Shown in pieces: positions 4,663 to 64,000 of a stretch of 64,000 bases of DNA; the first letter of the stretch is position 1, and each line of letters starts with the position of its first letter. A program made the translations under genes and the position numbers. The stretch comes from Physcia stellaris (taxonomy: Eukaryota > Ascomycota > Lecanoromycetes > Caliciales > Physciaceae), in assembly GCA_018902385.1 (NCBI GenBank), contig JABSSW010000014.1:724473-788472 (forward strand). The letters are read 5' to 3'. The notes under the pieces were generated by a model. That model was not told the origin of the DNA, ran no database searches, and saw nothing but the letters and a program-made list of their open reading frames with translations.

Positions 4663-4685
4663 GACGCGCTCCCCACTTTCGCGTC
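4663..4685. promoter_or_regulatory. Paired inverted MCB-like sites (GACGCG / CGCGTC) upstream of MBP1
   Basis: GACGCG at 4663-4668 and its reverse complement CGCGTC at 4680-4685 lie about 200 bp before the MBP1 ATG, in the 436-bp gap shared with the divergent Cup1-like gene. ACGCG is the core of the MluI cell-cycle box bound by MBF, whose DNA-binding subunit is the product of the next gene. Autoregulation is an inference. Confidence 0.45.
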
Positions 4686-4881
4686 TCGGAGATGATCTCG
4701 TTAATTGAACGGGATCACGTTCTCTCGCCGATGCTGCCTCTGAGATTGGGCCATTAATCGCAAATAGAAAATCGTGTGAATTGAAGCCACTTCGCTACCC
4801 AAAAGCATATCACAGAGACACCACCCGTGCCCTTCCCTACCGCCAGAGAGGCGCAATCCCTACTGACTGGCCTCAACAATT

Positions 4882-10077: not shown

Positions 10078-10501
10078 GGTGATGGAGAACAGGAGAGGAG
10101 CAATTGAAGACTTCTATGAGCGAAGTCTATAGATTAGTAGAAGTGATTCATTAGTCGTCGCGGGATCCCGAAGGAGCAAGGATGATTTGTTGAGCTTTGG
10201 GGTGAGCTTCTTCTCGCACATTGAAATTCGACCCCTGCAAGTCCCGATAAATCCACCGATCTGACTAAGACTCGCCAGCCAATCGGAGCAGGCCTACAAT
10301 TTGTGTGCCTTCTCAGCTACTTTACATGATCTTTGTTGGAGTGAACAAGTAGCACTCAGCAAAAGCTGTTCAATCGGTTCCTACCACTGCCATGCCGTGG
10401 CAGCCTTCTCGATGCTAACGTCACGTTTGAAGAGAAACAGCTGGCGCTGCACAAGGTGGATACGAGCTGGGCGATCTATTTCCCCAGGTTAAAGACTGCA
10501 C
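10078..10501. promoter_or_regulatory. Divergent LAT1-SEC7 promoter region with CCAAT box
   Basis: These 424 bp separate the LAT1 start (minus) from the SEC7 start (plus), so both promoters must lie here. A CCAAT pentamer sits at 10279-10283 within GCCAATCGG, the form bound by the fungal HAP/CBC complex, which commonly acts on respiratory genes. No clear TATA box was found. Confidence 0.4.
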
Positions 10502-16500: not shown

Positions 16501-16620
16501 CGGAGAATTGGCGAGGTCCGGATGGGAATGGCGCCAATAGCCACTCCGACGCAGACACCAACCAGTCCTCGCAGCGTTTCCTCGCATTACTTCTCTCGAA
16601 GATCAAGTCGCGGTAGATGA
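10502..16620 (+). CDS. SEC7: Sec7 Arf guanine-nucleotide exchange factor (BIG/Sec7 family)
   Basis: My model is join(10502..12193,12251..14739,14790..16230,16281..16620), about 1,987 codons, the usual length of fungal Sec7. After an acidic N-terminus come the DCB/HUS region and the Sec7 domain at about 777-965. That domain shows FNFKPKRGIKALIKDGFI, the catalytic Glu finger in FRLPGEAQKIDRF and YSVIMLNTDQHSNK. HDS repeats (SEVSWQEIQSSGQ onward) fill the C-terminal half. The protein activates Arf at the trans-Golgi for vesicle budding. One break lies at the G5 run 14042-14046, between QLDRFQLISGG and VDEGVVPDLSKARIVPP; removing one G or adding two restores the frame. The gene should be essential, so a consensus error is more likely than loss. 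Introns are 57, 50 and 50 nt. Confidence 0.92.
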
Positions 16621-17199
16621 TGAGCCAGCCTCTACGGACATCTTTGTTGTTACTGTGTTGCGCTTTAGCGTCATCGTTTAGAGAGGGTGGAGGAGGAAAT
16701 GTACTGGAATGTAGGAGCGAATGGCAGGTTCCGAGCAGGCGCAAGAGCATCTTGAACACTGCATCATGTGTATTATACCCAGCTACAGGAGGCTTAGATG
16801 GTACCTATACAATCGAAGGCTTTGACTACTGTAATATCTACATTCAATCAACATTCACCTACCTTACATGACTGGATGCCAAGCATGTGATGCCGGTTTG
16901 CCGAGTCAGAGAAAGCCGGTTGGATGCCATGAACCTGGTAGTGGTGCAGAAATCTTGATACTATCTCGCATGTACATGAAGCAGGCTTTCTACTATTCCT
17001 CAAAGTAGAAATCACCGTCGTTGTTGTTATTCCTCGTTCGATCAAGGCAGCCTGCCAAGTCTCCAACCGCTTCTATCCTCCTTCAACCCCGCCCTGAAGA
17101 AGCTGCAGCTCTTCACTTCACACAGGCGCTTGTCGCCAGCTTCTTGACTTCTCTTCTTCAATTGACTTTCACAGTACCTCGCGTCGATAAGTCGCAGTG
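16621..17199. other. Intergenic between SEC7 and PLD1
   Basis: These 579 bases hold the SEC7 3' UTR and the PLD1 promoter, which is C/T-rich near 17085-17175. No feature was recognised. Confidence 0.5.
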
Positions 17200-19939: not shown

Positions 19940-22138
19940 GGGGGGGATTGGGAAAGGGGAGGGGCAGGGGGATGGGGAGGGGGCGTGCTTTTGAGACTGC
20001 TGGTTGGGATTATGGTCCGGTTTGATAGACTGCATCATTTTTCGCGAACAGAACAGAAGGGTTGATACATACCTTAGTCCTCTCTCTTGCTCATTCCTAT
20101 GATTCGAAGGAAAGTAAAAGAAGAAGTGAAGCAATGAAAACATTGCTGTTATCTCGCAAATCTTTTTTTTTTTTTTTCGAACGAAGAAGATTTGATTGGA
20201 AGGACTGATTTTCGTTTTGTTACCCCCCATCTCCTAGCCCCGACACAACTCATTTCCTATCCCCCCTCAAAACCATGCTTCCCCCCTCCCCCTTCCCTCC
20301 CAAAAATTAAAGGATAATTATCACTACACTGCACTTATTCTCATCCATTACGAATTGCGCCTCTGCGAGGGATCCTGAGGATGTAATCGATTTCTTGATG
20401 GGGTTTCGAAGGAACTTCTCAATCAGTCAGAGTACTTTTCTGGTGAATAAAAATGGTGAGAAGGGGTGGAAGGAGATATGTAATGGGGATGTCATTGTAG
20501 TAAAAAAGCCCTTGATCATATCTATCCCGAGTAATCCTGTTGGAGAATTAAAAGATGATGGATGTTTTATTTTGTTTTCTTTTTTCTTCTCGACTCAAGT
20601 CAATTCTCATCTCTCATCCTCATCCCTGCACTCTCGTCTCCACATACCCGAAGAGAAGCGTTCCCATCCCCATCCCCATCCCCATCTTCACCACCACCTC
20701 ACAAAAAATCTCCAAACACCGGATCCGGGCCAGATCTGTCTTTTTCCGTCGAGTAGGCAGAAAATGTATATCTCTCCATTCCCCACCTCGCCGGACTTGC
20801 CCATGTTCTCTTATCAATCTCGACGGGAAAAAAAGAAATACGAGGATAGGAATAGGAGCTGTGATAGGACCCAAAGGGAAGGGAATAGAAATATGTGTGA
20901 CTTAAAGATATTCCTCAACCCTCCTCTTGGTGTTGTAGTCGAGCTTTTTCGCTCGGGATGGTTGGATAAGATAAGATAACTGCGAGGAAGTGGAAATTTC
21001 GGGTTCTCTTTGTGGGGTAACTCCAATCGCAGCTCTTGAGACGTTCGACGAGATGATGGATTTTTCAGGGGGCATTCGTGTCGCGTGGGAATAATACGTA
21101 TCGTCGCGGTGTATAATAAACGACCCTATTATACGAAGCGGAAGTCATCGGAGGCGAAGAGAGGATCAAGGAGGGTTTGAGGCGTTTATTTCAACGAGGC
21201 TGGCCAATCTTTCGAGAGCGGAGAGGTAGAGACTCGGGTCCTCCTTGGCCAACAACCGGAACGAGGCAAAAGACGAAAACTTTATGTAAGAGGTGCTTGC
21301 GCCTTCCGTCCAGTACTATTCGTCTGCTGAATCCGCAAGCATTGATACCGGGTGCCGCACCATCTGATTAACCGAGTCAGTAAGGTCATGCTGGTGTCGC
21401 GGTATCCTTAATCGTAATAAGTTCTCCTATGCACTAGTGAGCACTTCGGTTTCAGTTGGGAATTAGCTGAGGACGACTTGGAGCGAGGCCCGTCGTCGCG
21501 CTCCGCTGCCATGACCTGTAGGTGCGATCTGAAGTGCTACCCTCACCAGGGCATGGGATAGGCTGGAAGCTCAGGCTGGGGCGATGATTTGATTATGTTG
21601 GCTCTCCTGATATCGAGTGTTCTGCGTAAAGGCAGAGAAGCTGGTGCAAGAGATGTTGAGAAGTCTTCGGTATCCCATGGTCAGGTAATAAGTGGTGCTA
21701 ATTTTTAGGTTACATCGACAGATCTACGATTACCCGACTTCGGGCGGAATCAGAAGATGATGTTGTCTTCATGTCGTCTTCATATGCTTTGTGCCAAACA
21801 CGGGTAAGCGTGTTATCATATTGGGTGTATCGATGGCGATGCATGGGAGGCAAGATAGCACCACACCAGACCATGGGACAGATTAGGCTGGAGCTCAGGC
21901 CCGGGGTGATTATTAGATTATTGCTGGCTCTCATGAGGTCGAGTATTCTGCGTAAAGGCAGAGAACCTGTTGCAAGAAATGATTTGAGGAGCCTTCGGTG
22001 TGGTTTTATACTTCTCCTACCTTGACGGAGATGTCGTTGATCCCTCCTATGACTCAACGAATGCTTCATACAGACACTAGGCCTCGTATCTCACTGATCC
22101 CTCGGTCGAATGTGATCATCGGGTCTCGATCTCAGACG
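19940..22138. other. Gene-free stretch of 2.2 kb, low-complexity patches
   Basis: No supportable gene is present. There is a T-run at about 20163-20178, C-rich tracts at 20223-20310 and a short CCCATC-type run near 20665-20690. A diverged direct repeat (listed separately) lies at 21555-22003. Confidence 0.5.
21555..22003. repeat. Diverged direct repeat, two copies of about 120 bp
   Basis: Copy A (about 21555-21672) and copy B (about 21880-22003) share ordered blocks such as TAGGCTGGA, AGCTCAGG, TTGGCTCTC versus CTGGCTCTC, TCGAGT, TCTGCGTAAAGGCAGAGAA and TTCGGT. They look like two old copies of an unidentified non-coding repeat. No terminal repeats or target duplication were found. Confidence 0.55.
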
Positions 22139-25488: not shown

Positions 25489-25756
25489 ATATTGCTCTGA
25501 TCCGTACCAACAACTTCAACATCAAGTCTGTAGTGAGCGACAGTGAATGTCGAGATAGAACTGCATAGCTAGAGAGCCGCCCAGCTTGTGAGGCAGCCTT
25601 GTCCCCATGGTGAGAGGACAGGAGCTGCAACAACAGCCGGGGTCATCATCATCCATTGGACCTGCGTCAAAAAGCGATACCGGAAGAGTACTGGATTCAT
25701 GCATCCTCCAGCTCTCTACGGCGTCGTCGGCCAATGATGCCCGGTACCAGAGCTCG

Positions 25757-26021
25757 CGGTTGACAGAATAATTCGGACACCTAGTCCTAATTGGGCACAC
25801 CCCCCCAAACTTTGTATGCGAACGTTCTCTTTCACACCTGACTCATTAACTCACGTTTTCGAAGCATTCGAATCAACAAAAATCTCATGCAAAATCGCAT
25901 TATGTCATGAGCAAATAAAACAGTGTGTGCGAAATCAAGCGTTGAAGGGAACGTTGCGCATACAAAGTTTTGGTGAGGTATGCCCAATGTAGCCTAGGTG
26001 TCCGAATTATTCTGTCAACCG
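25757..26021. mobile_element. 265-bp MITE-like element with terminal inverted repeats
   Basis: The left end starts CGGTTGACAGAATAATTCGG (25757) and continues ACACCTAG; the right end is its exact reverse complement, giving a perfect 28-bp inverted repeat. Imperfect matching continues inward for about 50 bp (ATTGGGCA, AAACTTTGTATGCG, AACGTTC), leaving a core of about 100 bp. There is no coding capacity. This is the structure of a DNA-transposon MITE. The AATAATTCGGACAC motif looks like Tc1/mariner (pogo/Fot) ends, but I see no TA or other clear target duplication, so the superfamily is a guess. Confidence 0.8.
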
Positions 26022-26533
26022 GGAGCAGAGAACTCCAGAAGCGCTAATTACTAAGCTGCCAAGGCCCTCATCAGTCCTCTCTCGACCGAGTCTCACTATC
26101 CGAGGTATCGGACATCCACTCGCCCTCAGATGATCACAATCACCCATCCCAATCAAATGAACCAACGACAGCCCGAATTCGGAAACACGATCAATCTAGA
26201 ACCCCATTCATATCAGATCACTTTCTGCATTGCAAAGACGGGTAAGCGTGATTTGATAGGTCATTTTCTATGCGCACTCAATCCTGTCCGGGGCGAGTGA
26301 TCTTCCAACGAACGTGCTCGGCATCAGCGTCTACGATCCATGATGAATTGATCCTATTCGCAATTGCACCATGCTTGACTGGCACTTTGGATTTTCAAGC
26401 TATGCCGCTGGGCCAGAATGAGACCACTTTCGAAGCAATGGAAACTGGTGGGTGTGTGGATACGGGAAATGTGCTAGCGAGTGATATTTTCGTTGATCAT
26501 TAGCCCTTGCGGACAAGTAGGTCTTGAAAAGCT

Positions 26534-46408: not shown

Positions 46409-46413
46409 GTGTA

Positions 46414-46571
46414 TGTTGCGAATCCAAGCCTGAGCCCGATTGGGACTAGCTTATTGCCTTTGTATATTAGCGAGCAATTTCTCACTTTTATTCGATGTAT
46501 TCTACATCTATACACATTTTCATAGTCATAACAATCAATACATGATTATGAATTTTCATTATATTTTAACA
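46414..46571 (+). repeat. Left LTR (158 bp)
   Basis: It differs from the right LTR at 26 positions, all transitions. Its outer ~95 bp retain CC, GG and CT that are T or A in the right copy, while its inner end is mutated (TTTTCATT where the right copy has CCCCATT). Confidence 0.92.
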
Positions 46572-46790
46572 AATTATGAGTTCGACGCTATACGCGTCGC
46601 AATTTCACGATGAACATTACATCGTTTTTTACAAACAAACAACGAATGCACGATCGCAATTGATTTCACGATCGTAATTTGTCATTTCGAGCAAAAATTT
46701 TTCGTCAACGTAACGCGTTTTCGTTATTATCAATTGTAATTAACATTGTTATAATGAGTTTTGAACATACAAATCATTGAAATTTTACAT

Positions 46791-46918
46791 ATTCAAATTC
46801 ATTGAAACATATTCAAATTCAATGAAACATATTCAAATTCATTGAAACATATTCAAATTCATTGAAACATATTCAAATTCATAAAACATATTCAAATTCA
46901 TAAAACATATTCAAAATC
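46791..46918. repeat. Tandem array of 19-20 bp units inside the LTR element
   Basis: The unit ATTCAAATTCATTGAAACAT repeats four times at exact 20-bp spacing (46791, 46811, 46831, 46851), then as 19-bp variants ATTCAAATTCATAAAACAT. Confidence 0.85.
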
Positions 46919-47117
46919 ATGAATAAATGTGCAATTTTATTGATAAATCAAAATTATTGATATTTTTATCAAATCATTGTTGATCATACGCAAAATCATT
47001 GTTGATAAATCAAAATTATTGACGTTTAAATTAAATCATTGTTGATTGTAACATTATTGATCATACATATTCGTTGTTGATAAATGAAAATCATTGATGT
47101 TATATCAAATCATTGTT

Positions 47118-47520
47118 GATTGAAAATCATCAAATTGCAAATTACAAAATCATTAAATTATCATTTATACATTATTCAATCATTAAATTGCAAATTACAA
47201 AATCATCAAATTGCAAATTACAAAATCATTAAATCATCATTTATACATTATACAAAATCATCAAATTGCAAATTACAAAATCATCAAATTATCATTACAT
47301 ACAAAATTATCAAATTGCAAATTACAAAATTATCAAATTGTCATTTAACATTTATACATTACTTAAAATCATTAAATTGCAAATTACAAAATCATCAAAT
47401 TATTATTTATATATTATTCAATCATCAAATTGCAAATTACAAAATCATCAAATTATCATTTATACATTATTCAATCATCAAATTGCAAATTAAATCATCA
47501 AATTATCATTTATACAATAT
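47118..47520. repeat. Second tandem array: AAATTGCAAATTA-containing units
   Basis: The core AAATTGCAAATTACAAAATC occurs about eight times, alternating with TCATTTATACATTAT-type spacers in a higher-order pattern. Open frames across it are an artefact of the repeat. Confidence 0.8.
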
Positions 47521-47872
47521 CACGAGAATTTTTGTCAATGATTGTTGAATATTTTTTTGTTTTGTTTCGTTTTAAAAAAATTTTTATACAATGCTTTATA
47601 ATTGAATACAAAATATTTATTTTGAAATTGAACGATATGACGTTTCAACAATCATTGACAAAAAAAAATTATGTAATGAAACATACATAACAAAAACATT
47701 TATTATATATATTGATCGAATCGATTTATCATTTTATTTGTCGAAAATGCTGAACATTTTTTTCAATTTTTTCACAAAATTTTTAAGAATTTAACGAAAT
47801 CAACGAAAGCATAATTGAAAATTCATTAAAAAAACAACAATTCGTCTCAATCGAATTCGATTTGAAAAAAAA

Positions 47873-48030
47873 TGTTGCGAATTCAAATTTGAACTCGATT
47901 GAAACTAATTTATTGTTTCTGTATATTAGCGAACAATTTTTCATTTTCATTCGATGTATTTTACATTTACACACATCTTCATAGTCATAACAATCAATAC
48001 ATGATTATGAATCCCCATTATACTCTAACA
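47873..48030 (+). repeat. Right LTR (158 bp)
   Basis: Same length as the left LTR. The inner ~100 bp are depleted of CC and CT, but the outer ~50 bp keep ATCTTC, ATCCCCATT and ACTCTAACA. Confidence 0.92.
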
Positions 48031-48184
48031 GTGTACGAGAGTGAGGGAGGTTCCCACTACCTGGAGTGCGGCTCAATCAAACCAATCTAATGGGCTATCC
48101 CTTCGGCTCTGTGCATAGTGTTGCTGTTCTAGGTAAGTAGACATTCAGTTCATGATTTAGGCTACCCACAGGTTTTCTGCCTCA

Positions 48185-48682
48185 TCAGCTTTCGATGTCC
48201 GTATTCCACGCACCCTTCTTACTCAACTCTTTCACAGTATTGACCTTCATCCCAACCCACTCTTACATTCACTCCGCCCCAATAGAGTGATGGAATTTGA
48301 TGATTGGCTTGTACCACTTCAAAACAGTCCACTCGAATCTCTTCCCTCGTGTTTTTTCCTCCCTTCAACTCAAGGGCCAAATCGCCCAGTGATACTCTCC
48401 ATGACCACGACGACGGAACTCTGGACGAACGAATAAATCCTCAAGATATATTCCTGGGGCGGCGCGCCACGAAGAGTAATTGTTGAAGAATAATGCCATC
48501 CCTGTACAGAGTTTTGGATTCGACGATGTTGGAGGGAAGATTAAGAGCGTGTTCGCAAATCCTGAGAATGGCTGGGAGGGGAACGAAAGCCTGGCTCGTA
48601 GGGTTTCTTCGGTCGCAAGGACGGAGTCTGAGTCATGCTCGTAAGCTGCAAGCTCTTGAATTAGGGAGAGGATCGTAGGCAC
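48185..48682 (-). pseudogene. Decayed GNAT N-acetyltransferase
   Basis: Read on the minus strand from VPTILSLIQELAAYEHD, the frame shows GMALFFNNYSSWRAAPGIYL and EDLFVRPEFRRRGHG, the acetyl-CoA pyrophosphate loop of GNAT enzymes (polyamine/thialysine acetyltransferase-like). The same frame continues through a TGA (48365-48367) to KRFEWTVLKWYKPIIKFHHS, then TGA (48269-48271) and TAA (48263-48265), to EWVGMKVNTVKELSKKGAW and a stop at 48185. The region after RRRGHG has lost its usual sequence. Three internal stops with recognisable sequence on both sides mean a pseudogene. A 5' exon probably ended at the GGCCAG acceptor just upstream of 48682. It retains many CC and GG, so it was not altered by the process seen in the neighbouring repeats. 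Confidence 0.8.
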
Positions 48683-49162
48683 ATCTGGCCAGGATCAATG
48701 TCAGCGTCGGTTGCGAGCAGTGGCAGAATAGTTGTGAGCGGGACCCACAGCTTAGCAGCTTAGCATCTTGTCTTCAGGTTCACGCTACTGATCGTGGGTC
48801 AGGACCGCACGCAAAGGAGGCCTGAGCCACGATTAAGAGCTATGTAAAGTACAACCCTCTAGGTATGGCATGCTCAGGAAGTGATGATGCCCTTGGCCTG
48901 GCTTGACGAAATTGTAGAAGAGCGAGGCATACCAACTTCTGTAGCGCATCACAATGTTGCTGCTTCAGGATTGCAAGAAGACATCGTATCACGGTGGACC
49001 TTGGGATTGAAAACCCATTCCCCCATTGTCTCAGCAAGTCAGTCCCCCGGATTTTGCGACTTTTAGAAAAAATCCGAGAGATCCCCTCCGCATCCAATTA
49101 GTGAAATTTAGCGTGTTTTCACGCGATCTTTTCTCTCTCACTTCAATCATCATTATTTCACC
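48683..49162. other. Transition from unique DNA to CC/GG-free repeat block
   Basis: Normal composition until about 49060. CC and CT then thin out, and the last CC is at 49161-49162. No LTR end or target duplication is visible at this edge. Confidence 0.6.
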
Positions 49163-49768
49163 AAATTTACGTGTATATGTGTATAATTCAGTGAAGAAGT
49201 TCGATAGTATATAAACATTCAATAATTGAAATATGATTACATTCGAAATTCGTTTGAAATCACTAAATCATTTTCAAATGTCTCGAAACGTTTTCAGATT
49301 TTTCTATTAATCAAAGCATTCGTATGACATTTTCTTCGAATCATGATAATTTTTGAAACATTCATGTGACACGTATAAATTCATTTTACATATTATACAA
49401 TGATTAAACGTTTTGCGACTCGAACGATGTTGTATGTTGACATTTTTGAAAATAAATGTTTGACGTTTTCGAAATCATTGATCGAACAATCATTTCATTC
49501 ACAATAAATTGATTTGATACATTTTGATGATTGATGTATGATATTTGAATTTCGTAAAAATTTTTCAATCAATTTTTGAATAAATACACGTCGATCTCGA
49601 TGACTGAAATTTTTCGTTGATTGATAATGATTTCATACGATGTATGCGTTCGTATTGATCAAATTCATTAATTCGTTTCGTTCATTTGATTTGTTCGAAT
49701 CGTAATATCGTTAATTCATTTCGAAATTGATTTGCACGATTCACATAATTTATATGAAAATTGTATTG

Positions 49769-49960
49769 TGTTACGAGCATGTCTGAAATCTCGATTGAGA
49801 ATTTATTTTATCAACGAAAATTTTTATGAAAATTAGCGTGATTTGAATTTGACGCACAATTTATTTCAAACATTTCGATTTTCTGTACATATTTGTTTTT
49901 TAAATCAAATATTCTCGTTTTGTTATCTGTTTATCTTTTAGTCAGACACGATCTCTGACA
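49769..49960 (+). repeat. Left LTR (192 bp)
   Basis: It differs from the right copy at 15 positions: twelve CpT/ApG-type transitions, one CpA-type, one CpG-type and one T/A transversion. Confidence 0.9.
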
Positions 49961-51625
49961 TTATATTTGATTTTCATCGTGACGAACGATGTAAATTTCA
50001 CACTCGCAAAGTCAACGAGAAGAAAAAAACGCGATCATTCAATTCGTGACGATTTCATTTTCAGCACAAAATCTATCAATTCGCAATGACGATGATTCAT
50101 TGTTTTTAACACAGCAAGATTTCTCGTTTTGCATTTTGCGAGAATAATTGACATTCGATTAAATTTTGTTTTGTGAATTGCTCGTCGAAATACGCGAATA
50201 ATTAAATAAAATCGTCAAAATGTAAAGTTTTCTTAGAAAAAAATCACGAAACAACAAAACGAATTTTCGTGAATTGAATGAAAAATTTACATAAAGCATA
50301 TTCAAATCAACGAAACGAAAATTCTCTCGAAAAAAATCACGAAACAACAAAACGAATTTTCGTGAATGAAACAACAAAACGAATTTTCACGAAACGAAAG
50401 TTTTTTTGAAAAAAATCACGAAACATGACGTTTTTCGTGAATTGAATGAAAAATTTACATAAAACATTTTCATGTCAACGAAACGAGTCAATTGTCGAAT
50501 TTTTTGTTTTTGAAATCAATTGATCAATGAATTTGTTCGAACGACATTCGAGTCAACAATCAATTTTCTATTTTCGAATCAATACGACAATCAATAATCG
50601 ATTTTTTTGTTTTTCGAATCAATCAATCAATCAATCGTGTCAATTTTTTCGCTCGAATTTTTTGCATTTAATCAATAGTCGATTTTTTTTCTGTTCGTCG
50701 ACATTGAATGATTTTTACAATATTCATTTTTTTAAGCGTTGAAACATCGTTTGATAAAAAAAAAAAATCACATACATATCAAATCATTTATTTTTAACAA
50801 ACAAATCAACATTCAAAACATCAAACAAAAAAAATTTGAATTTCGTTTCGTTTCGTATTTGTTTCAACGATTTGTTCGTTGCGATGACATTCAATGAATT
50901 CGTTACAACGATTAATGAATTTGTTTCAATGAAATTTTTAATGAATCGATTAGAACGATTTCAAAATGTATGCGTTCGATTTTTTACATTTTCGCAATCA
51001 ACATCAACGAAAATGAATTTTTTACACACACGATACGAAAACAATGACATGATATGAAAAAATGAAAAACAACAATCAATGTGAATTTGTCACGCAATCA
51101 ATTCAATTCGTTTTTTTTACAAATTTTTGTTTGTTTGTTTGTTTGTCGTTAACACGTTTTATTTCGAATATTTGCAGTCAATCAGAACGCGTCGATTAAT
51201 AAAAACTCGAAAAATTCAAATTCGAAAAATTTGAAACAGCATACGTTCGCGAAATCGATATCGTTTTGTTGTTTTTGTTTTTGTTTTTGTTTTTGTTTTT
51301 GTTTTTGTTTTTGTTTTCGTTTTGTTTTGAAACATCGATCGTTTTATTATATTAATTTGCAAATATTTTCGCGATCAAAATTTTCATCAAAATTTTCAAC
51401 AAGATTTTCATTTTCGTTTTCGCATATATTTTCTGTTTTCGTTTTCGCATTTTCTGTTTTCGCATTTATTTTTTCACGTTTATCGCATTTGTTTTGAAAT
51501 TTTCAACGTCAATTATGATCAAACAAGTATTTGAATCATCGTCGATGAATTTTTTCGCAATGTCGATCGATAAGAAAAATAATATATTCGTTTCGAAACG
51601 AAATTTGAAAAAAACGAAAAAATAA

Positions 51626-51817
51626 TGTTACGAACATGTTTGAAATCTCGATTGAAAACTTATTTTATCAGCGAAAATTTTTATAAAAATTAACGTGATT
51701 TGAGTTTGACGCACAATTTATTACAAACATTTCAATTTTCTGTACATATTTGTTTTTTAAATCAAATATTTTCGTTTTGTTATTTGTTTATCTTTTAATC
51801 AGACACGATTTTTGACA
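51626..51817 (+). repeat. Right LTR (192 bp)
   Basis: Same length as the left LTR. Most CT remaining in the left copy is TT here (for example ATCTCTGACA versus ATTTTTGACA). Confidence 0.9.
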
Positions 51818-51822
51818 TATTG

Positions 51823-53169
51823 CAAATTTCGAAATCATCGCGAAACTTTCACAACATGAAATCATGTAAAATGTTTTTATGTAAAATTTAAAAAATGTGA
51901 CATCAAAAATGTATAGCAAAAACGATTGTATGACTAAATTAATAATTGCAAAATTAATTATTTTTCAAATTTTTGTTCATATAATCAATCAATTTGTTCA
52001 ATCGTACACATATTTCGAAATTTATTCGAAAATATGAATTTGTTGAATTCAATCGAAAATTTGATGTTGACGTGATCAAATTGATCGTTTTCGTGATTTA
52101 TCGAATTTCGATGATCGAATTGCTTGATATAATTTTATCGAAATTCGATTCGCAATATTTTGTTGATTTGAATTTTGAATGTTTTACATGCGTTTTTTTC
52201 TTAACATCGAAACTTTTTGAAATGATCAATATTTTTCGACATGTTTCGCAATAAAAATTGTTAAATTTGTGTAAATATGTTTTTTTTTGAAATTTGAAAA
52301 ATCGCTGTAATCGCGATTTTCGCATTCGTAAATCGTTGAATTGAAAAATTATTGTCATCGTGATTTTCGCATTTAATTATTTTTTATTTCGATTTTTAAT
52401 CAATTTGCGTTAAAAATTTGAAAATACATTTTTTTGAATGATTCAAAAAAAGCATGATTTGACGATTTTACTGTTTGTTGTTTTCAAAATCGAAAATTTG
52501 ATTTCGTACAATTCACAATTTTCGATTTGATGATTGACAATTAATTGATTGATAATGAATTTTGAATTCGAATCATTTTTTATTTTTTGTTTTTTTTTTC
52601 GTATATCGAATTCATGAAAAAATGTTCAAACGCGCAAAACGTTGTTGTCGCGATCGCATTCGATATATCAAATTTCGAAAACTTTTTTGATTTTTTTTTT
52701 CATTTCACATTTTATTCGTCGTTCAATCAAATCGAACAACAATTTTTGAAAATATTTTTGACACGATTCAATTTTTCATGCGTCGTAAATTCTAAACAGT
52801 AAATAACATTGAATTACATGTGAAAATTGAATTTTTTTGTCAACGATTTTATCGTGAAAAATATATTTATTTGACGTCGAACGCGTCGACGATTGATAAT
52901 TTTGTTGACATCGTTTTTTTTTTCGAATTATTTATGTGAAATTTTCGAAACATATTTTTTAAATGTTTAATCATTGCAATTGATTTTCAAATACGTTTTT
53001 CGTAATTTTTTCATTGAATCAAATAATAAAATTTTGACTTATTGTATGATTTATTCGAAATTTGATTTTCTTTATAAATTTTGCTGTTCAAAATGATTTC
53101 AATTCAAAATTTTTCGTTCGTGAATTTTTCGTCATTTTCGATATTCGATTGATACGTGAATTTTAACGA
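51823..53169. other. AT-rich DNA between LTR element and gypsy remnant
   Basis: It probably includes the 3' end and 3' LTR of the minus-strand gypsy element, but I could not match a second LTR copy. Open frames here have no recognisable content. Confidence 0.4.
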
Positions 53170-56100
53170 AATTTTCTTTTTTTTTTTAAATTTGATTTTT
53201 TTCAGCAACGAGACGTGAAAAACGACATGAATTCGTCAACGTTTGAATATTTCGAATTGATATGTTTGATTTTTTATTGTTTTGAATATTTTGAATGAAT
53301 CGAAAAATTTTCATTCGAATTTTTTATTGCGTTTGATGCGAATGTTTTTATCATTGACGTTGACGTAATTTTTTACGTAAAAACGTTTTATTTTTGTTTT
53401 TGCATTTTTGTATTTGATTTGTTGTTTTTGTGCGAATGCTAAATTGATTTTCAATATTTTCATCAATTCGATCAGTTTTTCGACATGCTTTTTCGCAAAT
53501 TTTGATTTAGTTTTGAAATTTGCAAATTTTTCGAAAAATATTTTTGAAATATATTTTTGCATTATCACAAAAAACGACATTTGCGTTGACGCATGTTTAT
53601 TGTTGTTGTAAACAAATTCAATCATCGACAATAATTTTATTCAGTTATTTTGTTGAAAATTGACGTAAATTTTGAAATATTGTTTCATGATTGAGTTTTG
53701 ACGTTTCGTTTGATCATCTGTTTGCGAATAATAAATCGTGAATAATTTAAATTTGATTTTTAAAACATAACATAAAACGTCGTGATATTTCGAAATAAAA
53801 ATCGATTTTTTGTTTGTTGTTATCGATGAAAAAAAATCATGAAATTTAGTGATTTTTCGAATCAATATTTCGACGAAATTTTTTGCGATCATTGTTTTTT
53901 TGATCGAAATGTAATATGTCATTTTCGTTAAACGATTTACGACAACGAATATTGAATCGTACGTTGTTTCGTTTCATGTTTTGTTTTCAAATAAATTTGT
54001 CACGAAGTTCATAATAATGTCAATTCATTTGAATTTCGATATAAAAAAAAACGATAATTTTTCGTATGATTTGTGACGAAATGTTTTGCTTTTTTTGCAA
54101 ATTGCACATGTTTCGCAATATTTTTTTATTTGTGTTCGCATGTTTGAATCATGTTAAAATTTTTTTTTTGTTCGATCAATAATATTTTCGTCGTATTAAT
54201 TTCAAAATGCGTTTTACATCGAAATGATTTGCGAAAAAATTGTCATGATTCGTTTTTATGACGTTTTTTTTTAAACTCGATGAAACGTACAAACGATTTT
54301 CGTGTCACAATATTTTTTTTTCGTCTATTCAAAACGAATGTGATTTTTCAAAAATAATTAATTTTTGTTTCATTTGAATCGCACAAAATTTTTTTTTTAA
54401 CAATGAACGAATCAATTCGACAAAATTGTCAATGATTTTATCGTCGTATGTTGCATTATGTTCATGAATATGTTTTCGCGCAATTATTTCGTCGATCGAT
54501 TCGAAAATCGTTGCATTATTTAATATTAATGTTTTTCATTCGTTGATAATCACGTTTGATGTATTTGAAACGTCAAAAAAATCATTCGAAAAATTGTTTT
54601 TTTCATTTTTTTCAAAAAGTTCGCACGCGAAATTTTCATTTTCGTTGAATTTGAACATCGTTGTTTTGATTTCGTTCACATAAATCGAAAATTCGTTTGA
54701 ATTCGTTTGTAAAAATTGTCGCAAACGCGTCAAAATTTAACGATTGTTTTCAATTTCATTTTCGATGATCGTTATGTGATCAAATCGTTTTGACAAATCG
54801 TTCGCAAAATTTTTATTGTCGAAACGATAATCGATGACAAAATTGTAACGTGACAATTTTTGTGTTCATCGTATTTGTCGAAATGATAATTTTGTTGTAA
54901 TCATAAAACGATTGAAATTTCGATGATTCGTTAAAACGAAAATTTGTTTTTTCGTTTTTTCAAATAATGACGTCAATGTTTAAATGCGAAAATTATAATC
55001 AGAAATTTTTTGTCGTAAATTTCATAATTACATTTCGCGAATATCATTTTTTTTGAAAAATAAATTATCGAATGTCAATGATTTTTGTCGTTTGATTGAT
55101 AAAGTATTTTTTTTATTGTTTTATTCGAAACGTCGATTTTCACACGAATAAATTTAATCGAATCGAAATGTTACAAAACAGAAATTTTCATAAACGTTTT
55201 GCGTAATCGTTTGAATGATTCGAAGATTTCGAAAATCAAAAATTCGTTCGATAATCGTTTTTTATTGTGATTTCTATTTCGATTTCGTTTTTTTTTTTAT
55301 TTTTTTCTTATGAAATTTTGTTGATTTTTTTAGCATGAAAATCAAAAATAATGTCAATTTATTGAAGTTTTTGATAAATCGTTTATAAAAATTGCACAAT
55401 TCGAGAAATTCGAAAATTTCGAACACGTTTTTAGATGTTGATCAATTTTGTATAATTTCGATTTTGTTTTGTTGCATTTGCATTTTTTTCGATGAAACGA
55501 TAAAATTCAAAAACTCGATATTATTTTTGAAAAATTTACATTTTTTCATGTTAAAAAAAAATTTGTGTTTTTTTAGACGATTTAATATTCATTTGACGTT
55601 TTCAACGTGTTGTGTTTCGTTTTTGAAATAGATAATTATATCGTTCAAATAAATTATGATCGACAAATTTAATCGCTCGATCAAAATTTTGTTAACGAAA
55701 TTTTGAAACGTTGCAAATACATTAATAAAATCGAAAAACATGACGATATATTCAAAATGTTCGTATCGTGTTTTGAACGTTGTTTTTCATTCATTTTTTT
55801 TAATACGAAATCGATTGTAAATTGTTATCATGTCAAAATTTGTATATTTGCGAATTTTGTTTAAACGATTTAAACTTTCATCGATTAATGATAGAGAATA
55901 TTTATTTTTGATCGTTAAAAAATTAAAATCTTTGTAATTTACGCATAATCGTAAAATCTCGTTTTTTTTTAACGAACAAAATTGAAACGTTTGCAAAAAA
56001 AATGAAAAATCGAATAAATTCGTTTTCAAAATGTTTATTCAAATATGTTCGCAAAATTTTGAATTCGTTTTTTGACAATGCGTAAATGAATTCATACGAT

Positions 56101-57273
56101 GATTTTTTGTTTGATTTTAAATTTATTGCATGATTATCGAATTCATGATTAAATAATTCGTATGTTTTGTTTTCATTTGTCATGTCAACGAATTCTTTCA
56201 AAATTTCGAATAGAAAATTCTTGATATTTTTTTTTATTTTCGCGAAAACAGAATCGATTTGCGATCGTCGTTCGATATATACGTCATTCAAATATTTTAT
56301 TTCATCAAAAATCATTTGTACGAACATGACGAAAACGTGTTTTTTTTTATTGAAAATTGCATTGATTAGTTTTTTTAATTCGATTTTTTCGATACGATTT
56401 GTGATGAAAAAAAAACGATTTTACAATCATTGATCACGATTCGATTTTGTCGATGTTTCAATCTATATTGATTTCAAATAATTGTATTTAAAACAAGTTT
56501 AAAATCATGTCTCAATTTAAATTTGTTTCTAAAAAATTATCGTTAAAAAAACTATTCACGTCGTTTTCATTTTGTATTTCGAATTGCACGAAATGAATTT
56601 CATAAATTTTAAATGAATGATTTTTTATGATCATTGTTTCGCAATTCGATACGTTGAATGATTTTAATTCGAATCGTTTAACAAATTTATGATTTATTAA
56701 ATTGATTTTTGTTTTTGAATTCATAACGATTTCGAATTTCAATTTGTTTTTTTCGTCAAATGTTTTATTTATTTTGATTTTGATTTTTTTGCATTTGATC
56801 ATGCGAAATTTTTTACGACGACGTTTTGCGTTTTTGATTTCGATAATGAACGTATTGAATTCGTTCGAATTTGAATTTATTCGATCATTTGTTATTGAAT
56901 TTTTTTTTGAATCAATTTGATTGAAAATTATCAAATCGATTATTTTTTTGATTTTGATTCATAAAAAATTTTCTCGAATGAACGAATATTCGATTTAATA
57001 TTTTTACATTTTTTTATATTGCATTCAGATTTATCGCAATTTATGTATCGATCGTTGTTCACGATATTGTTATATTCGATTTTGATTCAACGTCATAATT
57101 TTTGAACTTGATTGATTCTCGATTAAAATTATCGAATTTGAATTTTTTATCGTTTTTTCGATTTTTTCGTCGATTTTTGTTAATTTGATTTTTGTTGTTT
57201 TCGTTTTCATCGAAATTATTTTCATTTTTTTTGCGTTTGTTAAAATCGTTATCAAATTTATTTTAATTGACAT
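53170..57273 (-). mobile_element. Decayed Ty3/gypsy retrotransposon A (internal region)
   Basis: Order on the minus strand is gag knuckle, protease, RT, integrase, as in Ty3/gypsy. A degenerate zinc knuckle lies near 57003-57045. The protease region (LINHKFVKRFEL) is within 56512-56934. RT is at about 55620-56030 (ILRLCVNYKDFNFLTIKNKY), with the active-site YxDD reading YLND. The integrase core is at 53641-53922 (YYSQTDDQTKRQNSIMKQYF), with the usual catalytic Glu as Lys. The integrase C-terminus is at 53311-53631 (EFVYNNNKHASTQMSFF), running into VFHVSLL near 53180. Trp codons appear as TGA (53236-53238, 55787-55789). No Pro, Gly or Trp is encoded. The element is inactive; its LTRs were not identified. 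Confidence 0.85.
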
Positions 57274-59369
57274 TGCGTTGTTTTTTGCGTTGAAAATTTT
57301 CTCGTTGTTTGAAACGTTTAAAAATTATTTTTTTGTCGTTTTCAATTTTTTGTTCGATCAGAAAATTTTGATTATTTTAAATTAAATTCAATACGAAATT
57401 TTGTAATTTTATTGTTGATGAAAATTTCATAAACGAATGTAAATGTAAGAATGTAAACACTGCGTGACTAGAATGTGCGAATAATAATATGAATTGCTAT
57501 GATAAATGCTAAACACATAGTAGAACTAATTGCTAAAAAAACAGAAAGAAATTCGTGAAATTTCGAGTATATAAACACGAGATGCGATAGCTAAATTCGC
57601 AGCGTTTTAGCGTTCGCTTGATCGATTTCGTTTCATTACAACTGTCTTTTTTCTGAATGATCGATTTTTCGTGTCAAATATCAATGTTTTTGTAATACAT
57701 CATTATCGCGTCGCAACAACGTCGTTTTGTATGTAACATTGTGTTTTCAATTTGTAGTTTTGAAGCACTGTAATTCAACAAATAGAAGTAGCAATAGCGA
57801 TGTAATGCAATTTCAAATATTGCGCTCGTGTTGTGAAATCGAGTCGAAATGAATCGCGTCATGTGTTGAAAACTTTTTATTTCAAATTTCGAATTCATTT
57901 TTTGAATTTTTTTTTTTCAGCATATTTATTTTGTAGCAACGTACGTATTCATTTGATTCTTTTTGTTTTTGCGATAGCAACAACTATTTCAACGATGATG
58001 TCAATTTGATATATTGCTGTTTGTACAGTTATTACATCACTTTTGCAAATGATAATGCTGTCGCAATGATGTTTCAATGACGACGAAATTGAATTTTCAA
58101 TTGTCGATCGTGTAATACGTGTGTTAACAACGCAATAAATCATGACGTCGTTTTTTTTGCTTTTTACATTTCGCAAGTCGCTTTCTGCAATTTCTGTTGT
58201 AAATGTACTGTTTATGATGTTGACGTTGTTGATTCAATGCTAAATTGATAAATTTTTTTCATTTGAGCAATTGAATGAGAACACGACAACTCAAATGTTT
58301 TTTTCGCGTGACAGTCGCGAACGCATGTTGTCAAAATTTAATAAACAAACACGCACAATTGTTTCGAATCAGTGTTAATGTATGACAAAATCAATTCATT
58401 TCTGATGTCAACGTTGCGTTCGAAAATTTCGCACAAATTCTAAACACGTTTGCGAAACTTCGAGAAGTAGCAAACGCGTCAAATGTCAATTCTATAGCAA
58501 AAACTCGCATTATTGCGAGAAAAACATGATTTTTTCGCAATTTCAAATTACTGTTCGCGTTTTTGCTGCTCAAAATAGCGCTCAAAACAAATTGAAAACA
58601 ACTTTGAAACTTTGAAAAAATAATAGCATGCAGACTTTGTGCGTAACGTGATTAACATGATGCAAAAACAAATCGAAAAAATTCGTTATTTTTTGTTTTG
58701 ATCGCGTTTCGCAAAATTGTTGCAACAATTACATCAAAATTTGTCATAAAAAACGACTTTCTGCTCGTTGTTTTCTCGTTTTCGTTCGTTTTTGCGCTTG
58801 CTCGAAAGCAAATCAAAATTTTTTCTGTTTCGTTTATTGATTTTGATTTTGATTTTGATTCGTTTCGCGTTGTCTTTTTTTCGATTTTTTTCGTTTTCGA
58901 TTCGTTTGCGTCTGTTTTCGACTTCGTCTCGTCTGCGTCGCAAACAAATTCGTTTGTTGTCGCGTTTGTTTTTGCGTTTGCTTTCGCGCAATAAAATCGC
59001 GTAATACATGATAAACAACGTTTCAATTAAACGCGACGACAACTAACATGACGCAATCGAAATCGATTTGATTGTTGTGATTTGAATTTTGACTGATGAA
59101 TTTATCGACGCGTTGACGTACATTTTCGTGTTTTTTTGAATTCATTAAATCGCATATCTGATGCTGATTCTGTTTGTTTCTGTAGTTTGTTTGCGTTGAG
59201 ATGTTGATGTTTGATATTTCTATTGTAACGTGTTGTTTTGTGATTTGTTTGCTGAAATTTACGAACTTCAATATACTTCTATAGCATCGAAATGTATGCA
59301 AATTGCGCATATAGTCAAAAACAATTCGCAATATCATTTTATTGTTTGTGTTTTCGCGTCGCAATTATT
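57274..59369. other. Inter-element AT-rich DNA, candidate LTR zone
   Basis: It should contain the 5' LTR of element A and the 3' LTR of element B. The segment 57430-57640 differs from its surroundings in being richer in TA and CTA (GCTAAACACATAG, GAGTATATAAACACGAG), as expected of an LTR promoter, but no partner copy is in the window. Confidence 0.35.
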
Positions 59370-62300
59370 GTTATTTTTGCTTTTTGAATCGTTCACGTTT
59401 TTTCAATTTTAAAAATTGACGTGTTTGTTTTTTTGCTGAAAATTTCTCGCTCGATTTCGTTTTGAATTTGTTTGTTCTTCGACGTTTTGCAATTTTTTCA
59501 GATTTGCGTAATTCGCGCGCATTTTCGAACTTGACAATTGCGTTTTTCGCATTCTCGAAATGTTTCATTGATTTTCACGAGTTTTTATATGACGATGAAT
59601 TTATTCATGCAATAAAATATTCAAATTGATTTTTTTTAATGCGCTTGTCTAGCATCTGCGATATCTTTCATTTTTTTTCGTTTTTCATTAGTATTGATTG
59701 CGACTTTGAATTTGCGTCGTCACGACTATATCAAAATTCGAGTAAAAAGACATGAAACACAAAATGTATGAATTCATATTGTTTAGACAAATCAAGCTCG
59801 TAAATCTGCGTATCTATTTTTTTGACAATTTCGAAAAAATTCAATTGTTTATAATCAATTTTCTTTTTGAAACGCAATGTGCGTATATTTACATCACGCA
59901 ACAACATTTTTTTTTCAGATTCAAAATTTTTCATTATATGATTTTCATTATAATATTTGATTTGTTGTTCGAAAATCGCTTTTCACAATTTCATTAAATG
60001 CGCTCGATTGCTTCGCAACGTTTTTGTTTTGTCTATTGCAAATGTTGTTTTTTTTCTTTGAAAATTGCTCACAAAATCGCTGTCTAGAGTCGCAACGTAT
60101 TCAAACAAAAATTCTTGAAAAGTTTGATCAATGTTTGAATGTTTGCTATTATTGTAGACAAATTGTGTCATGAATAACAATTTTGATCAATTATTCTGTT
60201 TGAAATTGCAATACACACGCAAATAATGCTCGAACACAACATTTTGTTTTTCTGTTTGCTCATTTGTTTGTGAATGAAAAACAATGCTAAATTTACGTTT
60301 CGCTTTCAAATTTCAACACAGAGTAAATCAGAAATTGTTTGTGAAAAAGAATTTTCGATTCGAAATAATGCTACGCATCATTTCATGACGACATACGAAT
60401 TTTCGTCATAGCAAATTCGCAAAATCTATCGCGTTTAACGTCTTTGTGATTGCTATGTACGTTGCGTATTTCGTCAATTTGTTTATCAATACTAATATTG
60501 AATCGCTAGTCTTTTTCGTATAAAAATCTTTAGCAAAAAACATATCTGTAATAAAATTCATGATAATTGTATCAAATGATTGTTTTTCATTTGATGAAAT
60601 TGCTATCATATCGTTATAAAATTTATGTCGATGAATTCGTATTCGTTGACAATCTGAACAAATGCGTACATAATTTGTTATTTTTTTAATCATGTCAAGT
60701 CAAAAGTATTTGCGTCGCACAACATTTTCGATTTTTGTTCGCGCAAAATGCTCAACATTTGAATCGTCATAATTCATACGAAAAATTTTTTGTTTTGTAG
60801 CGAAATTTTCAAATATATAGATTGCGAAATCACGACGAAACAATTCATTTTTTTCAACATTTCATTTCGAAAACTCGTTTTGTTTGTTTGCGTATTTTTG
60901 ACGTCATTGTTTCTCAACAACAAAAACGTTCTTTTGTTGTAATTTGAGTAATCACGCAATCATTGATTTTCGCAATTTCAAATAAAATTTTTTCGATTTC
61001 ATAATTTGATGAACTAAAAATCGAAATGCGACAATGTCTAAAATTTTGCAAACACATTTATCGAGAATTTTCTCATTCGAAACAATATTTCGAATATTTG
61101 TCGTAACAATGTTACACAATCGCGTTGTCGATGTTGCAAATTTGATTGAAACAAACACACGTTAATCGTTTTGCAAATCAAATTGATAATTCTGATTGCG
61201 AAATTTGTTTCGCAAAATAGACAAAAATTTATCATTGTTTTTGTCGCTATCGTTCGATTTTATAAAATCAAATTTTCTCGACGACGCGTTCGCAAAATTC
61301 AATTTGCTTTTGCGATATTTTATATTGAAATCAAACGCAATTAGTTTTTCAATTCAACGAATCTGTTTCGCATTGAATTTTTTGATTGTCATAAAATATC
61401 GAAAATTGTTGTGATCAAAAATAACGCGAATAAGATGTTTGCTATTTTGCAAATAATGTTTTCAATTTTGAAATCAAACATTATCGCATAAAATTCAAAT
61501 TTTTGTCGTTTTTGTATTTCAATTAATTTTTGTTTTTTGAATTTGTAATGAAAACGCAATATAAAAAATGTCATTGATCGTTTTTGTTTTTTGATCGAGA
61601 CATCATTTGTTTCGCGATCAAAAACATCAATTTTCATGCGTAGTTTCGCTTTTCAATCATAGTGCGTAAAAATAAAAGCAATCGTGAATTTAGTTTTGAA
61701 CTCGTTAAACGCAATTTTAATTTTCTTTGTCATAACAAATGAAAAACGACTTTTTTCTTTTTTCGCATCACGCGTCAAATTCGTAAATGATGTTACGATT
61801 TGCGAAATTTTTTTAACAAAACGTCTATAAAATTCAGCAAAATTTAAAAAAATCATGATATTTTTCGCATTTTCGAGTTCAAATCAATCGACGATTACGT
61901 TTATACGCGAACGTTTCATTTGAATATCATTGCGTTCAACAACAAAGTTTAGAAAATTGATTTTTTTTTTGTTGAATTCGCATTTCTTCAGCTTGACATA
62001 CAAACGATAACGTAACAACGTTTTGAACATCAAACGAACATGTTTTCAATGTTGTTGTTCATTTTCAAAATAAATCAACACATCATTCAAATACATCACG
62101 CAAAAAACGTCAATGTATGATTTCAATGTTTCATTAACATAAAATTGAAAAGTAGCAAAAGCGTTAGCAAAATCGAAAAACATAATTTGATATTCATATT
62201 GTTCATAGCGAGTACGAAAAGCAATTTTTCATTCATTTTTTTGACGAATACGAATTTTATGATACGCATTTCGAATGTTTATTTTGATGAAATGTCTAAC

Positions 62301-64000
62301 ATTCGCGAAACGTTTTAACGTTTCAAACAACAACGACAATGAATAATTGTTTTTGATCGTGATTTCATTGAATTCTCGATAATTCACACATAAACGCAAA
62401 TTGTCATTCGACTTTTTGACAAACAACACAAATGTTTTCGCAAATGCGTTGAAAAAACGAATTCATTTTTTCGTCAACGCGTTCTCGAGATAATTGCGTA
62501 TAGCAATAAACTCGTCATGTGACATATTGTATATAAATTCAAAACGCGACTTTTTGTTTGATTGCAAATCAATAACATACTCGATTTGATCATGCGTATT
62601 CAAATTGTTCGACAACGTTTTGAAGAATATTTCGATTACTTTTTTGATAGCATCAAAAATGTGATCGTTACGATTCATTTGTAGCGCATCACAACGAGCA
62701 ATATTTCGTTTTCGATATTGATAGTTCTGTGTTAAAAAAAACATTTGATATGACATTGCGACATAAACACGATCGCGATTCGCAATAACAATCATAATTA
62801 AATCAACGAATTTTTTCGCAAAGCAAAGATTGATTGAGATTTGTTTGAATTTTTCATAATCATCATCACGATATAATCAGCGACAATCATGTCAGCGAAT
62901 GTCAAAATCGACAACATTCAATCATGAATATTCAAAAATCATATCGTATTCACGCATGTCAATCGTTCAAAAATCAATATTTTGTTTTTTTACATGCTTT
63001 TCATTATCTCGTGTTATGATATGCACGTTCTCATGATGTTCATATATTTGAATTACACGATCGTCAACAGTTTTTACATGTTGTTTAGCAATTTTTTTGA
63101 GTTCAGACAATTGCATTTGTTTGACAAAAATTTGTAATATAAAATTCGTTTCGACATCAAAATCAATCAAACAAATAATTGTTGTATTGTTTGTTTGCGT
63201 AACAAATGTTTTGATTGATAACGTGATTATCAAAACACGAAATTTATTTCGCTTTAAATTTATTCTCAATGTTTCAACGACAAGCATCAGATTCGTTTTT
63301 TTCTCGACGATTGATTTTGATTTTGATTGCGTTTTTTTTGAATTTGCGCATATTTTTCGCACGCAAAATCATTTGTTATATGATTCGATTTGTCACATGA
63401 ATAACACGTACGTTCGTCGAGTTCTGAAAATGCGAAATTTTGATTTTGATTTCGATTTTCATTTTTTTTTTCATTTTGTTGACTTTGCTGCGATTTCGAG
63501 AATTGATTTTGATTGTTTCTTTGAACGTTGTCAGATTCAGCAAATCTATTACGCGAAATTTTTTTGTTTCTATTTTTGTCATCGTCATTGTCATTTTCGT
63601 GATTTTTTTGATTATTTTCATTATTTTGTTCTGTTCTCGTAACATTGTTCGACGATTTATCTAAAATATCATCGTCGACGAGCAATTGTTTCGCAATCAA
63701 CAAATTGACGACTAGTTTGAAATAAAAATCGATTTCATGATTTCGCATTTTACACATTTGATGCGAACTAAAGCATGAATTTTGATCAACAATCTCTTTT
63801 GTCGTTTCTCGTTCGAGACGCGACGTTTCAATTTGTTTCACAACTTAATTAAATATTGATTGAACGCAACAACGCTTTGTCGAGACAATTGTTTGACATT
63901 TTCAATGATAATAATCGTGTTCATGACACGAATCATCGAGTTGCTAAACAACGTCAACAAATAATCTTTATATTGTTTTCATGTTTGTTTTTCAAATTGA
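59370..64000 (-). mobile_element. Decayed Ty3/gypsy retrotransposon B (chromovirus type), 5' end outside window
   Basis: On the minus strand, gag is at about 63290-64000 with a Cys knuckle (CYSCDKSNHITNDF). Protease is at 62967-63362 (CLIDFDVETNFI). The RT leader is at 62463-62795. RT is at 62229-62429 (LRLCVNYREFNEITIKNNYS), continuing to a YLND active site near 62090 and FLNFAEFYRRFVKKIS at 61653-61856. RNase H is at 61389-61637 and the integrase zinc and core region at 60406-60693 (ICSDCQRIRIHRHKFY). The integrase C-terminus is at 59983-60180 and 59731-59934 (IHFVFHVFLLE). A chromodomain tail is at about 59500-59640, with two TGA at Trp positions (59575-59577, 59605-59607). The order and the chromodomain place it among fungal chromoviral gypsy elements. 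It cannot code for active proteins. Confidence 0.87.

Follow-up and report, generated by a model that had tools for sequence, protein, structure and literature searches.

CpC-led C-to-T hypermutation of repeats in the lichen-forming fungus Physcia stellaris, very likely repeat-induced point mutation with an inverted target

The assembly of Physcia stellaris analysed here, from a lichen-forming fungus of the Caliciales (Lecanoromycetes), amounts to 44 Mb, and the last 64 kb of its contig C14 (788472 bases), referred to below as the window, ends in a block of 14,838 bases (49163-64000) that contains neither a CC nor a GG dinucleotide. Which process can empty a stretch of DNA of these two dinucleotides so exhaustively? 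Copy-against-copy comparisons reveal that repeats in P. stellaris are hypermutated from C to T, with CpC near saturation, CpT partly changed, and CpA and CpG at background or close to it. This mutation process is real, strong and clean, and we regard it as very likely that it represents repeat-induced point mutation (RIP) whose target is inverted.

Composition of the block

Dinucleotide counting over 49163-64000 returned 0 CC and 0 GG at a G+C content of 27.3%, as against some 552 CC plus GG expected from base composition; the same figure was the mean of 200 mononucleotide shuffles of the block, whose minimum was 500. A first-pass annotation, made from the letters of the window, had described the block as free of both dinucleotides and had supposed that chance alone would supply several hundred at about 25% G+C. 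Both statements are borne out, and a count near expectation, which it had named as the outcome fatal to its claim, did not appear. It had likewise called CT and AG rare and CA, TG and CG abundant, in agreement with the counts of 228 CT and 180 AG (0.28 of expectation) beside 895 CA, 1035 TG and 854 CG. Per kilobase, the block holds 130 CA plus TG and 58 CG, much like the 132 and 59 found in 1-20000, where G+C is 51.3% and CC and GG occur 1289 and 1308 times. CC/GG is normal throughout 1-45000 and in a spacer at 48036-49080, and 1-46000 resembles ordinary gene-bearing DNA.

Since CC and GG are absent, Pro, Gly and Trp cannot be encoded by the block, and a six-frame check found no codon for any of the three. 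The start of the block is a boundary of counting (the final CC stands at 49161, and CT sites are still present at 49128-49141), and it extends to the end of the contig. It consists largely of repeats mutated from C to T and, correspondingly, from G to A; a second CC/GG-free run, 46458-48013, lies within a single long terminal repeat (LTR) element, so that both runs fall in repeats as far as these have been searched. Among 20 fetched loci of retroelement family A, one of the families in the block, the window's own included, CC/GG was 0 over the full length of five (L007, L008, L011, L021 and L022), eight had 1 to 7, and in seven, where unmutated flanks supplied most of them, there were 51 to 179. 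Twenty arbitrary 1-kb samples of the genome, a small set drawn from 14 mostly larger contigs, comprised two without CC/GG and 18 with 54-161.

Mutation spectrum, copy against copy

Direct measurement of the spectrum rests on repeats of which an unmutated copy survives. In the Gypsy family an unmutated copy, L025 (C12:58600-62600), served as reference and a second one, L027 (C5:1164810-1168809 plus flanks), as background; these are 95.4% identical over 4 kb, and their differences show no bias toward CpY, that is, C followed by a pyrimidine (24/569 at CpC, 21/491 at CpT, 18/523 at CpA and 15/523 at CpG). Four mutated copies, L028-L031, taken from 38 further matching stretches listed, had undergone C-to-T change at 2006 of 2269 CpC (88%) and 1222 of 1963 CpT (62%), as against 80 of 2085 CpA (3.8%; 3.1, 3.3, 4.8 and 4.2% by copy) and 41 of 2112 CpG (1.9%). 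A second family, compared through its sole unmutated copy, L071, with five of the 19 other stretches listed and without a background copy, gave 1203/1238 CpC (97%), 1046/1280 CpT (82%), 48/1225 CpA (3.9%) and 40/1085 CpG (3.7%). CpC exceeded CpT in all nine copies compared. In the Gypsy copies the 5' neighbour matters little, CpC being changed to 85-92% whichever base precedes it, and the base two places 3' of the C likewise has little influence. Transitions of C:G to T:A are nearly the only changes in L028-L031 (676/727, 757/813, 948/986 and 968/1002, respectively), transversions numbering 28, 23, 23 and 23 of the same totals. The order of targets proposed in the first-pass annotation, CpC first, CpT next and CpA spared, is therefore upheld by alignments in two families, and CpA is not the depleted context in the nine copies, in the family A loci or in the 20 arbitrary kilobases.

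An earlier estimate, based on a 16-copy alignment of family A in which an ancestral C was assumed wherever any copy has C, had put the change per copy at about 23-47% for CpA and 24-39% for CpG. It was rejected because older differences between copies were thereby counted as mutation, and the unmutated references were used instead. L070 (C39) was dropped as a reference, being single-copy.

The dependence on a 3' pyrimidine brings to mind ultraviolet (UV) damage or a general mutagen acting at dipyrimidines, given that lichens are exposed to light and that the UV signature is C-to-T change at TpC and CpC. TpC before a purine is spared, however (TCA 19/586 and TCG 16/695 in the Gypsy copies), 1-45000 and the spacer at 48036-49080 are normal, and there are patches in which one strand alone is changed, as detailed in the next section; the TpC counts in themselves contradict UV damage, the probability of which we consider practically nil.

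The effect on coding sequence follows the same rule. In the four Gypsy copies 39 of 48 TGG had turned into TGA, but none of 68 CAA into TAA and none of 79 CAG into TAG; across matches to reverse transcriptase (150 of 527 candidates scored, 10 of them without a stop), the in-frame stops were TGA in 250 instances, TAA in 33 and TAG in 3. Judged as canonical RIP, with CpA preferred and TpA raised, the block fails: CpA is at or close to background, TpA/ApT is 0.44 and (CpA+TpG)/(ApC+GpT) is 1.39 (0.64 and 1.29 in 1-45000), and the composite index is -0.95. With the default thresholds of RIPCAL (as given in the available text of PMC2621366) the block is accordingly scored as not RIPped, and TpA/ApT spans 0.40-0.77 across all 20 arbitrary samples. 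Surveys of RIP that are built on TpA/ApT and CpA indices can thus overlook heavily mutated genomes.

Strands, edges and candidate enzymes

The least mutated of the four Gypsy copies, L028, allows the two strands to be told apart. Between reference positions 0 and 800 its bottom strand is changed at 73/78 CpC, 19/42 CpT, 1/70 CpA and 0/54 CpG, as against 4/52 CpC and 0/39 CpT on the top strand; between 2230 and 2520 one strand is changed at 19/21 CpC and 9/17 CpT and the other at 0/13 and 0/28. The switch from unmutated to mutated sequence takes place within a few tens of bases. We read these patches as the work of an enzyme travelling along one strand and converting most CpC and about half of the CpT, later events filling in the other strand. 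Neurospora RIP also acts strand-wise.

The edges of mutation were located in the repeats of the window itself. The short LTR element that holds the second CC/GG-free run (46414-48030) has TG...CA termini and a 5-bp duplication on each side, which reads GTGTA in the sequence (46409-46413 and 48031-48035, plus strand). Its left LTR (46414-46571, plus strand) is mutated from 46518 on, its right LTR (47873-48030, plus strand) is mutated in its inner part to 47967 and unmutated from 47977, and the interior is mutated, so that the outer ends of the LTRs are largely spared. The 26 differences between the two LTRs are all transitions, 24 at CpC or CpT and two at CpA. At 17 sites up to 46508 the left LTR is intact where the right one is mutated; in the opposite direction, the outer part of the left LTR is changed at one CpT site (46460) and two CpA sites. 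The right LTR is intact from 47977 to its end where the left one is mutated. Mutation is thus inset by about 95-104 bases on the left and by 53-63 bases on the right. The repeat that begins at 49081 likewise retains CC to 49161, mutation starting about 80 bases inside it. At all three edges tested, then, the change ends some 50-100 bases inside the repeat and does not reach the flank. Both this position of the edges inside repeats and the CpY rule in two families are shown.

The other features of this part of the window fit between and behind these edges. The short LTR element contains degenerate tandem repeats of the ATTCAAATTCATTGAAACAT type (46724-47784). The spacer that follows (48036-49080) is unmutated, and searches with two parts of it, 48036-48200 and 48800-49074, listed a second copy for neither. 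A dispersed repeat of about 690 bp occupies 49081-49768; the 45 matching stretches listed for it, one of them its own, differ by a few bases in where they start. It is followed by an LTR-like direct repeat on the plus strand (49769-49961 and 51626-51818), whose two copies differ at 15 places, namely 12 CpT, one CpA, one CpG and one transversion; matches in the genome to 50001-51870 are few or weak. Family A (51880-56000) and a second retroelement family, B (57500-63900), lie on the minus strand as judged from their reverse transcriptases, and have 40 and 31 matching stretches listed, again with their own included (31 of 1151 and 25 of 236 candidates scored, respectively). Each holds a reverse-transcriptase remnant (PF00078) on the minus strand with two in-frame TGA, at 55499-55960 (C14:779971-780432) in family A and at 61944-62417 (C14:786416-786889) in family B. 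In the unmutated part of the window we also noted an imperfect palindrome (25752-26026, 275 bp, 71% self-complementary) and a pair of direct repeats (21541-21671 and 21861-21999, about 140 bp, 81% identical).

As regards the enzyme, the first-pass annotation had asked for homologues of RID and DIM-2, and the genome contains no fewer than three PF00145 methyltransferases: two of RID class, RID-A and RID-B, and one resembling DIM-2. RID-A, entered publicly as P0121 with 932 amino acids, shares 57% identity with a Heterodermia protein across 83% of the part searched; for a protein of Usnea florida the identity is 67% across 41%, and a Lasallia protein aligns across the whole of that part at 43%. 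RID-B (513 amino acids by predicted splicing; locus L032, C6:789000-795000) shares 72% identity with a protein from Heterodermia. A tree built on 40 chosen rows places the RID-B group (10 rows) on one side of a branch with a support of 99 in the Shimodaira-Hasegawa-like approximate likelihood ratio test (SH-aLRT), and the group sits within a 20-row set that includes eight rows labelled DmtA; the designation as RID-class means this kinship with DmtA proteins, in a comparison set without Neurospora RID. In Aspergillus, RID has its homologue in DmtA. The abstract of PMC2432034 supports this homology.

RID-B is a short paralogue of divergent sequence. The loop that follows its catalytic Pro-Cys is distinct, and the Heterodermia protein and relatives from metagenomes have it too. 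A DFEDKQ-like loop occurs in this place in 32 of 33 RID-B-type proteins (the exception being P0028) and in none of 187 other listed proteins examined from the fungal and lichen searches, 42 of which have a D..N pattern. The predicted structure of a relative, P0001, has a mean predicted local distance difference test score (pLDDT) of 88.4, and its alignment matches chains of DNMT1 and HhaI by sequence. An altered preference of a RID- or DIM-2-type methyltransferase, one of the causes suggested at first pass, would fit this gene complement. Reading of the target by its 3' base suits an enzyme of the methyltransferase class better than a deaminase of the APOBEC class, and the acting enzyme is most likely one of the two RID-class proteins; our guess, prompted by the loop, would be RID-B.

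The DIM-2-like gene has a long open frame of 1118 amino acids, matched at 631 bits by the PDB chain 9bap_A, which we take to be Neurospora DIM-2. One may imagine that its product methylates heterochromatic repeats at CpY and that 5-methylcytosine is then lost by deamination without any RID step, a scheme in which CC/GG-free flanks without known homology, found at some loci, could represent spread. A preference for CpT would nevertheless be at odds with the excess of CpC over CpT in nine of nine copies, and an enzyme acting on all CpN should touch CpA and CpG, which are at or near background. Moreover, one-strand patches, near-complete change of CpC and sharp switches are unlike what slow deamination of methylated DNA would leave, and the change ends within the repeat at the three edges instead of spreading into the adjoining DNA. 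For these reasons we deem this route unlikely.

Hypermutation of the retroelements, for instance on their cDNA, by a cytidine deaminase of AID/APOBEC or bacterial-toxin type is more unlikely still, and we give it very little weight. A processive enzyme of this kind could also produce one-strand C-to-T change over hundreds of bases, and the genome has eight matches to the PF00383 deaminase family; yet these may encode ordinary enzymes of metabolism or of tRNA. Known deaminases of the AID/APOBEC and toxin types are defined by the 5' base, whereas here it is the 3' base that decides and the 5' base has little effect. Mutation of both strands in most of the copies compared, together with the sparing of LTR ends, is also unlike the editing of minus-strand cDNA.

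What we consider highly probable is a RIP-like genome defence with an inverted target. Several marks of RIP in the broad sense are found: transitions are nearly the only changes, RID-class methyltransferase genes are present (RID-A and RID-B, so classed by their kinship with DmtA), and single patches are changed on one strand in L028, one of four copies. The trigger by homology, the timing and the enzyme are what we infer. A step of the sexual cycle would recognise homology between repeat copies, an enzyme of the cytosine-5 methyltransferase class that recognises a pyrimidine on the 3' side would modify and deaminate the C, and it would act along one strand at a time, repeatedly, until CC/GG is exhausted. 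The P. stellaris culture used for sequencing had been grown from ascospores, and apothecia are abundant in this species (sections available of PMC7513301). The genome paper, which reports 46.57 Mb from nanopore plus Illumina reads, makes no mention of RIP in its available text (PMC7513301).

Several observations weigh against RIP with an inverted target and should be set beside those in its favour. The two unmutated Gypsy copies, L025 and L027, persist beside mutated relatives; their coexistence counts against it because RIP in every cross should have hit both. Perhaps both were acquired since the last cross, or perhaps some crosses pass without mutation. In the two most heavily mutated Gypsy copies CpA stands at 4.8 and 4.2% versus a background of 3.4%, and the second family was compared without a background copy, so that a weak CpA activity of about 1% may exist; a few CpA differences also occur in the LTR pair of 46414-48030 (2/26) and in the direct repeat at 49769 and 51626 (1/15). 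Single-strand patches are confined to one of four Gypsy copies, the other three being mutated on both strands throughout. In four of eight loci examined there is CC/GG-free flank without homology to other fetched loci (L015:1-400, L016 near 5800-6000, L018 near 5800-6400 and L017 near 6000-7131); these flanks, compared as they were with the fetched loci, may be other repeats or may reflect spread of mutation into low-copy DNA. Finally, RID-A and the DIM-2-like gene are present equally with RID-B.

A more far-reaching proposal, to which we would give a little less than an even chance, is that a lineage of lichen fungi possesses a RIP that reads a pyrimidine, not a purine, 3' of its target, since a duplicated RID (RID-B, with its rebuilt catalytic loop) would have taken over the choice of target. 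Such a RIP would strip away all CC/GG and hence the codons for Pro, Gly and Trp, would take most CpC of one strand per event, would exist in more than one organism, and would have gone unseen as the standard RIP indices score its repeats as unmutated.

Other organisms and known systems

Is this mutation restricted to Physcia? Public protein sets were queried with a mutated reverse-transcriptase frame of 264 residues, and 69 of the 120 proteins listed, out of 223 matches, contain neither Pro nor Gly. In these 69 proteins, Pro positions of the unmutated element are occupied by Ser, Phe or Leu in 87% and its Gly positions by Asp, Glu, Asn or Lys in 93%; His is kept in 64% and Gln in 53%. As the query itself selects them, the Pro/Gly-free proteins speak for existence and not for frequency. 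One of them, P0341 (453 amino acids, from JGI and NCBI sources, Pro/Gly 0), matches the P. stellaris genome to at most 51% among 93 places scored, for which reason it is assigned to another genome, while P0277, with best matches of 72% along its full length and 80% along a part, may come from a near relative. These sequences suggest that CpC-led mutation is not confined to Physcia, at least one Pro/Gly-free protein belonging to another genome.

The same proteins bear on the possibility of an artefact of assembly or base calling, such as methylated C miscalled in nanopore reads and left unpolished in repeats. The assembly did combine nanopore and Illumina reads (PMC7513301, in the sections available), and repeats are hard to polish. 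The copies nonetheless vary in degree of mutation and have strand patches and sharp edges, and P0240-P0245 come from other assemblies: five of these six lack Pro and Gly, and the sixth has two Pro. They are ENA entries with 77-85% identity to the query, and their short-read origin is deduced from longest contigs of 1.1-3.6 kb. We accord an artefact hardly any credence.

The reverse-transcriptase frames P0240-P0359 without Pro and Gly have some Trp, probably because the gene caller applied another code, in which TGA means Trp, so that decayed repeats were entered as proteins. More generally, where the protein sets of metagenomes include open frames of low G+C that lack Pro and Gly, these can be decayed repeats. 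Among bacterial and archaeal contigs 15 loci were detected, with CC/GG close to the expected number, and a like search of viral contigs found none. Bacterial and archaeal records of metagenome-assembled genomes (L055-L060) include contigs that have a Gypsy-related reverse transcriptase at 30-34% G+C and normal CC/GG; the bacterial and archaeal loci are probably stray eukaryotic DNA.

Open-access literature, the scope of our search (subscription journals lying outside it) and judged for the most part from listings, yielded no CpC-led RIP, and within it the first-pass opinion that a CpC-first RIP-like process is undescribed holds. Target preferences of this kind were reportedly surveyed by Clutterbuck in 2011. 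According to the available text of a 2025 survey of 1,239 fungi by k-mers, CpA is the target that RIP-like defences prefer in common (PMC12543289), and a study of ten genomes describes CpA, CpT and CpG signatures, CpC being named nowhere in its available text (PMC4352252). From the same source, Microbotryum and the rusts have a non-CpA target in their repeats, as Physcia does, but the target is CpG (TpCpG) and a Masc2-like enzyme is the only one found; Botrytis, Sclerotinia and Magnaporthe have CpT among their targets and RID/Masc1-class genes, two in some species, but unlike in Physcia CpA goes along with CpT (PMC4352252). CpC is affected in Monilinia, in the form of CpC-to-TpT double changes, but beside classical CpA-to-TpA RIP (PMC8959702, text available in part). 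RIP is also known from the lichen fungus Cladonia rangiformis, like Physcia a Lecanoromycete with a sharp boundary between gene space and repeats and with RID and DIM-2 homologues; its repeats peak at about 16% G+C, and the accessible text, in which neither 'dinucleotide' nor 'CpA' occurs, does not give the target (PMC12542154).

Trichoderma reesei shares with Physcia the C-to-T change in duplicated DNA of an ascomycete, but differs in its order of targets, CpA and CpG being about equal and first, CpT next and CpC last; for Neurospora crassa the order is given as CpA>CpT>CpG>CpC (both in the available text of PMC5496416). Physcia resembles Neurospora in that C is changed to T in repeats, the 3' neighbour sets the target, RID-class genes are present and transposable elements are inactivated. 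It differs in that CpC precedes CpT and in that CpA and CpG stay at background or close to it, so that the products are TpC and TpT instead of TpA, and in that nonsense arises through TGG to TGA and not, as in Neurospora RIP, through CAA and CAG to TAA and TAG. A natural system that takes CpC first would offer a direct route to what in RID sets the target. The choice of target in RIP has so far been treated as CpA-led across ascomycetes; Physcia puts CpC first and spares CpA.

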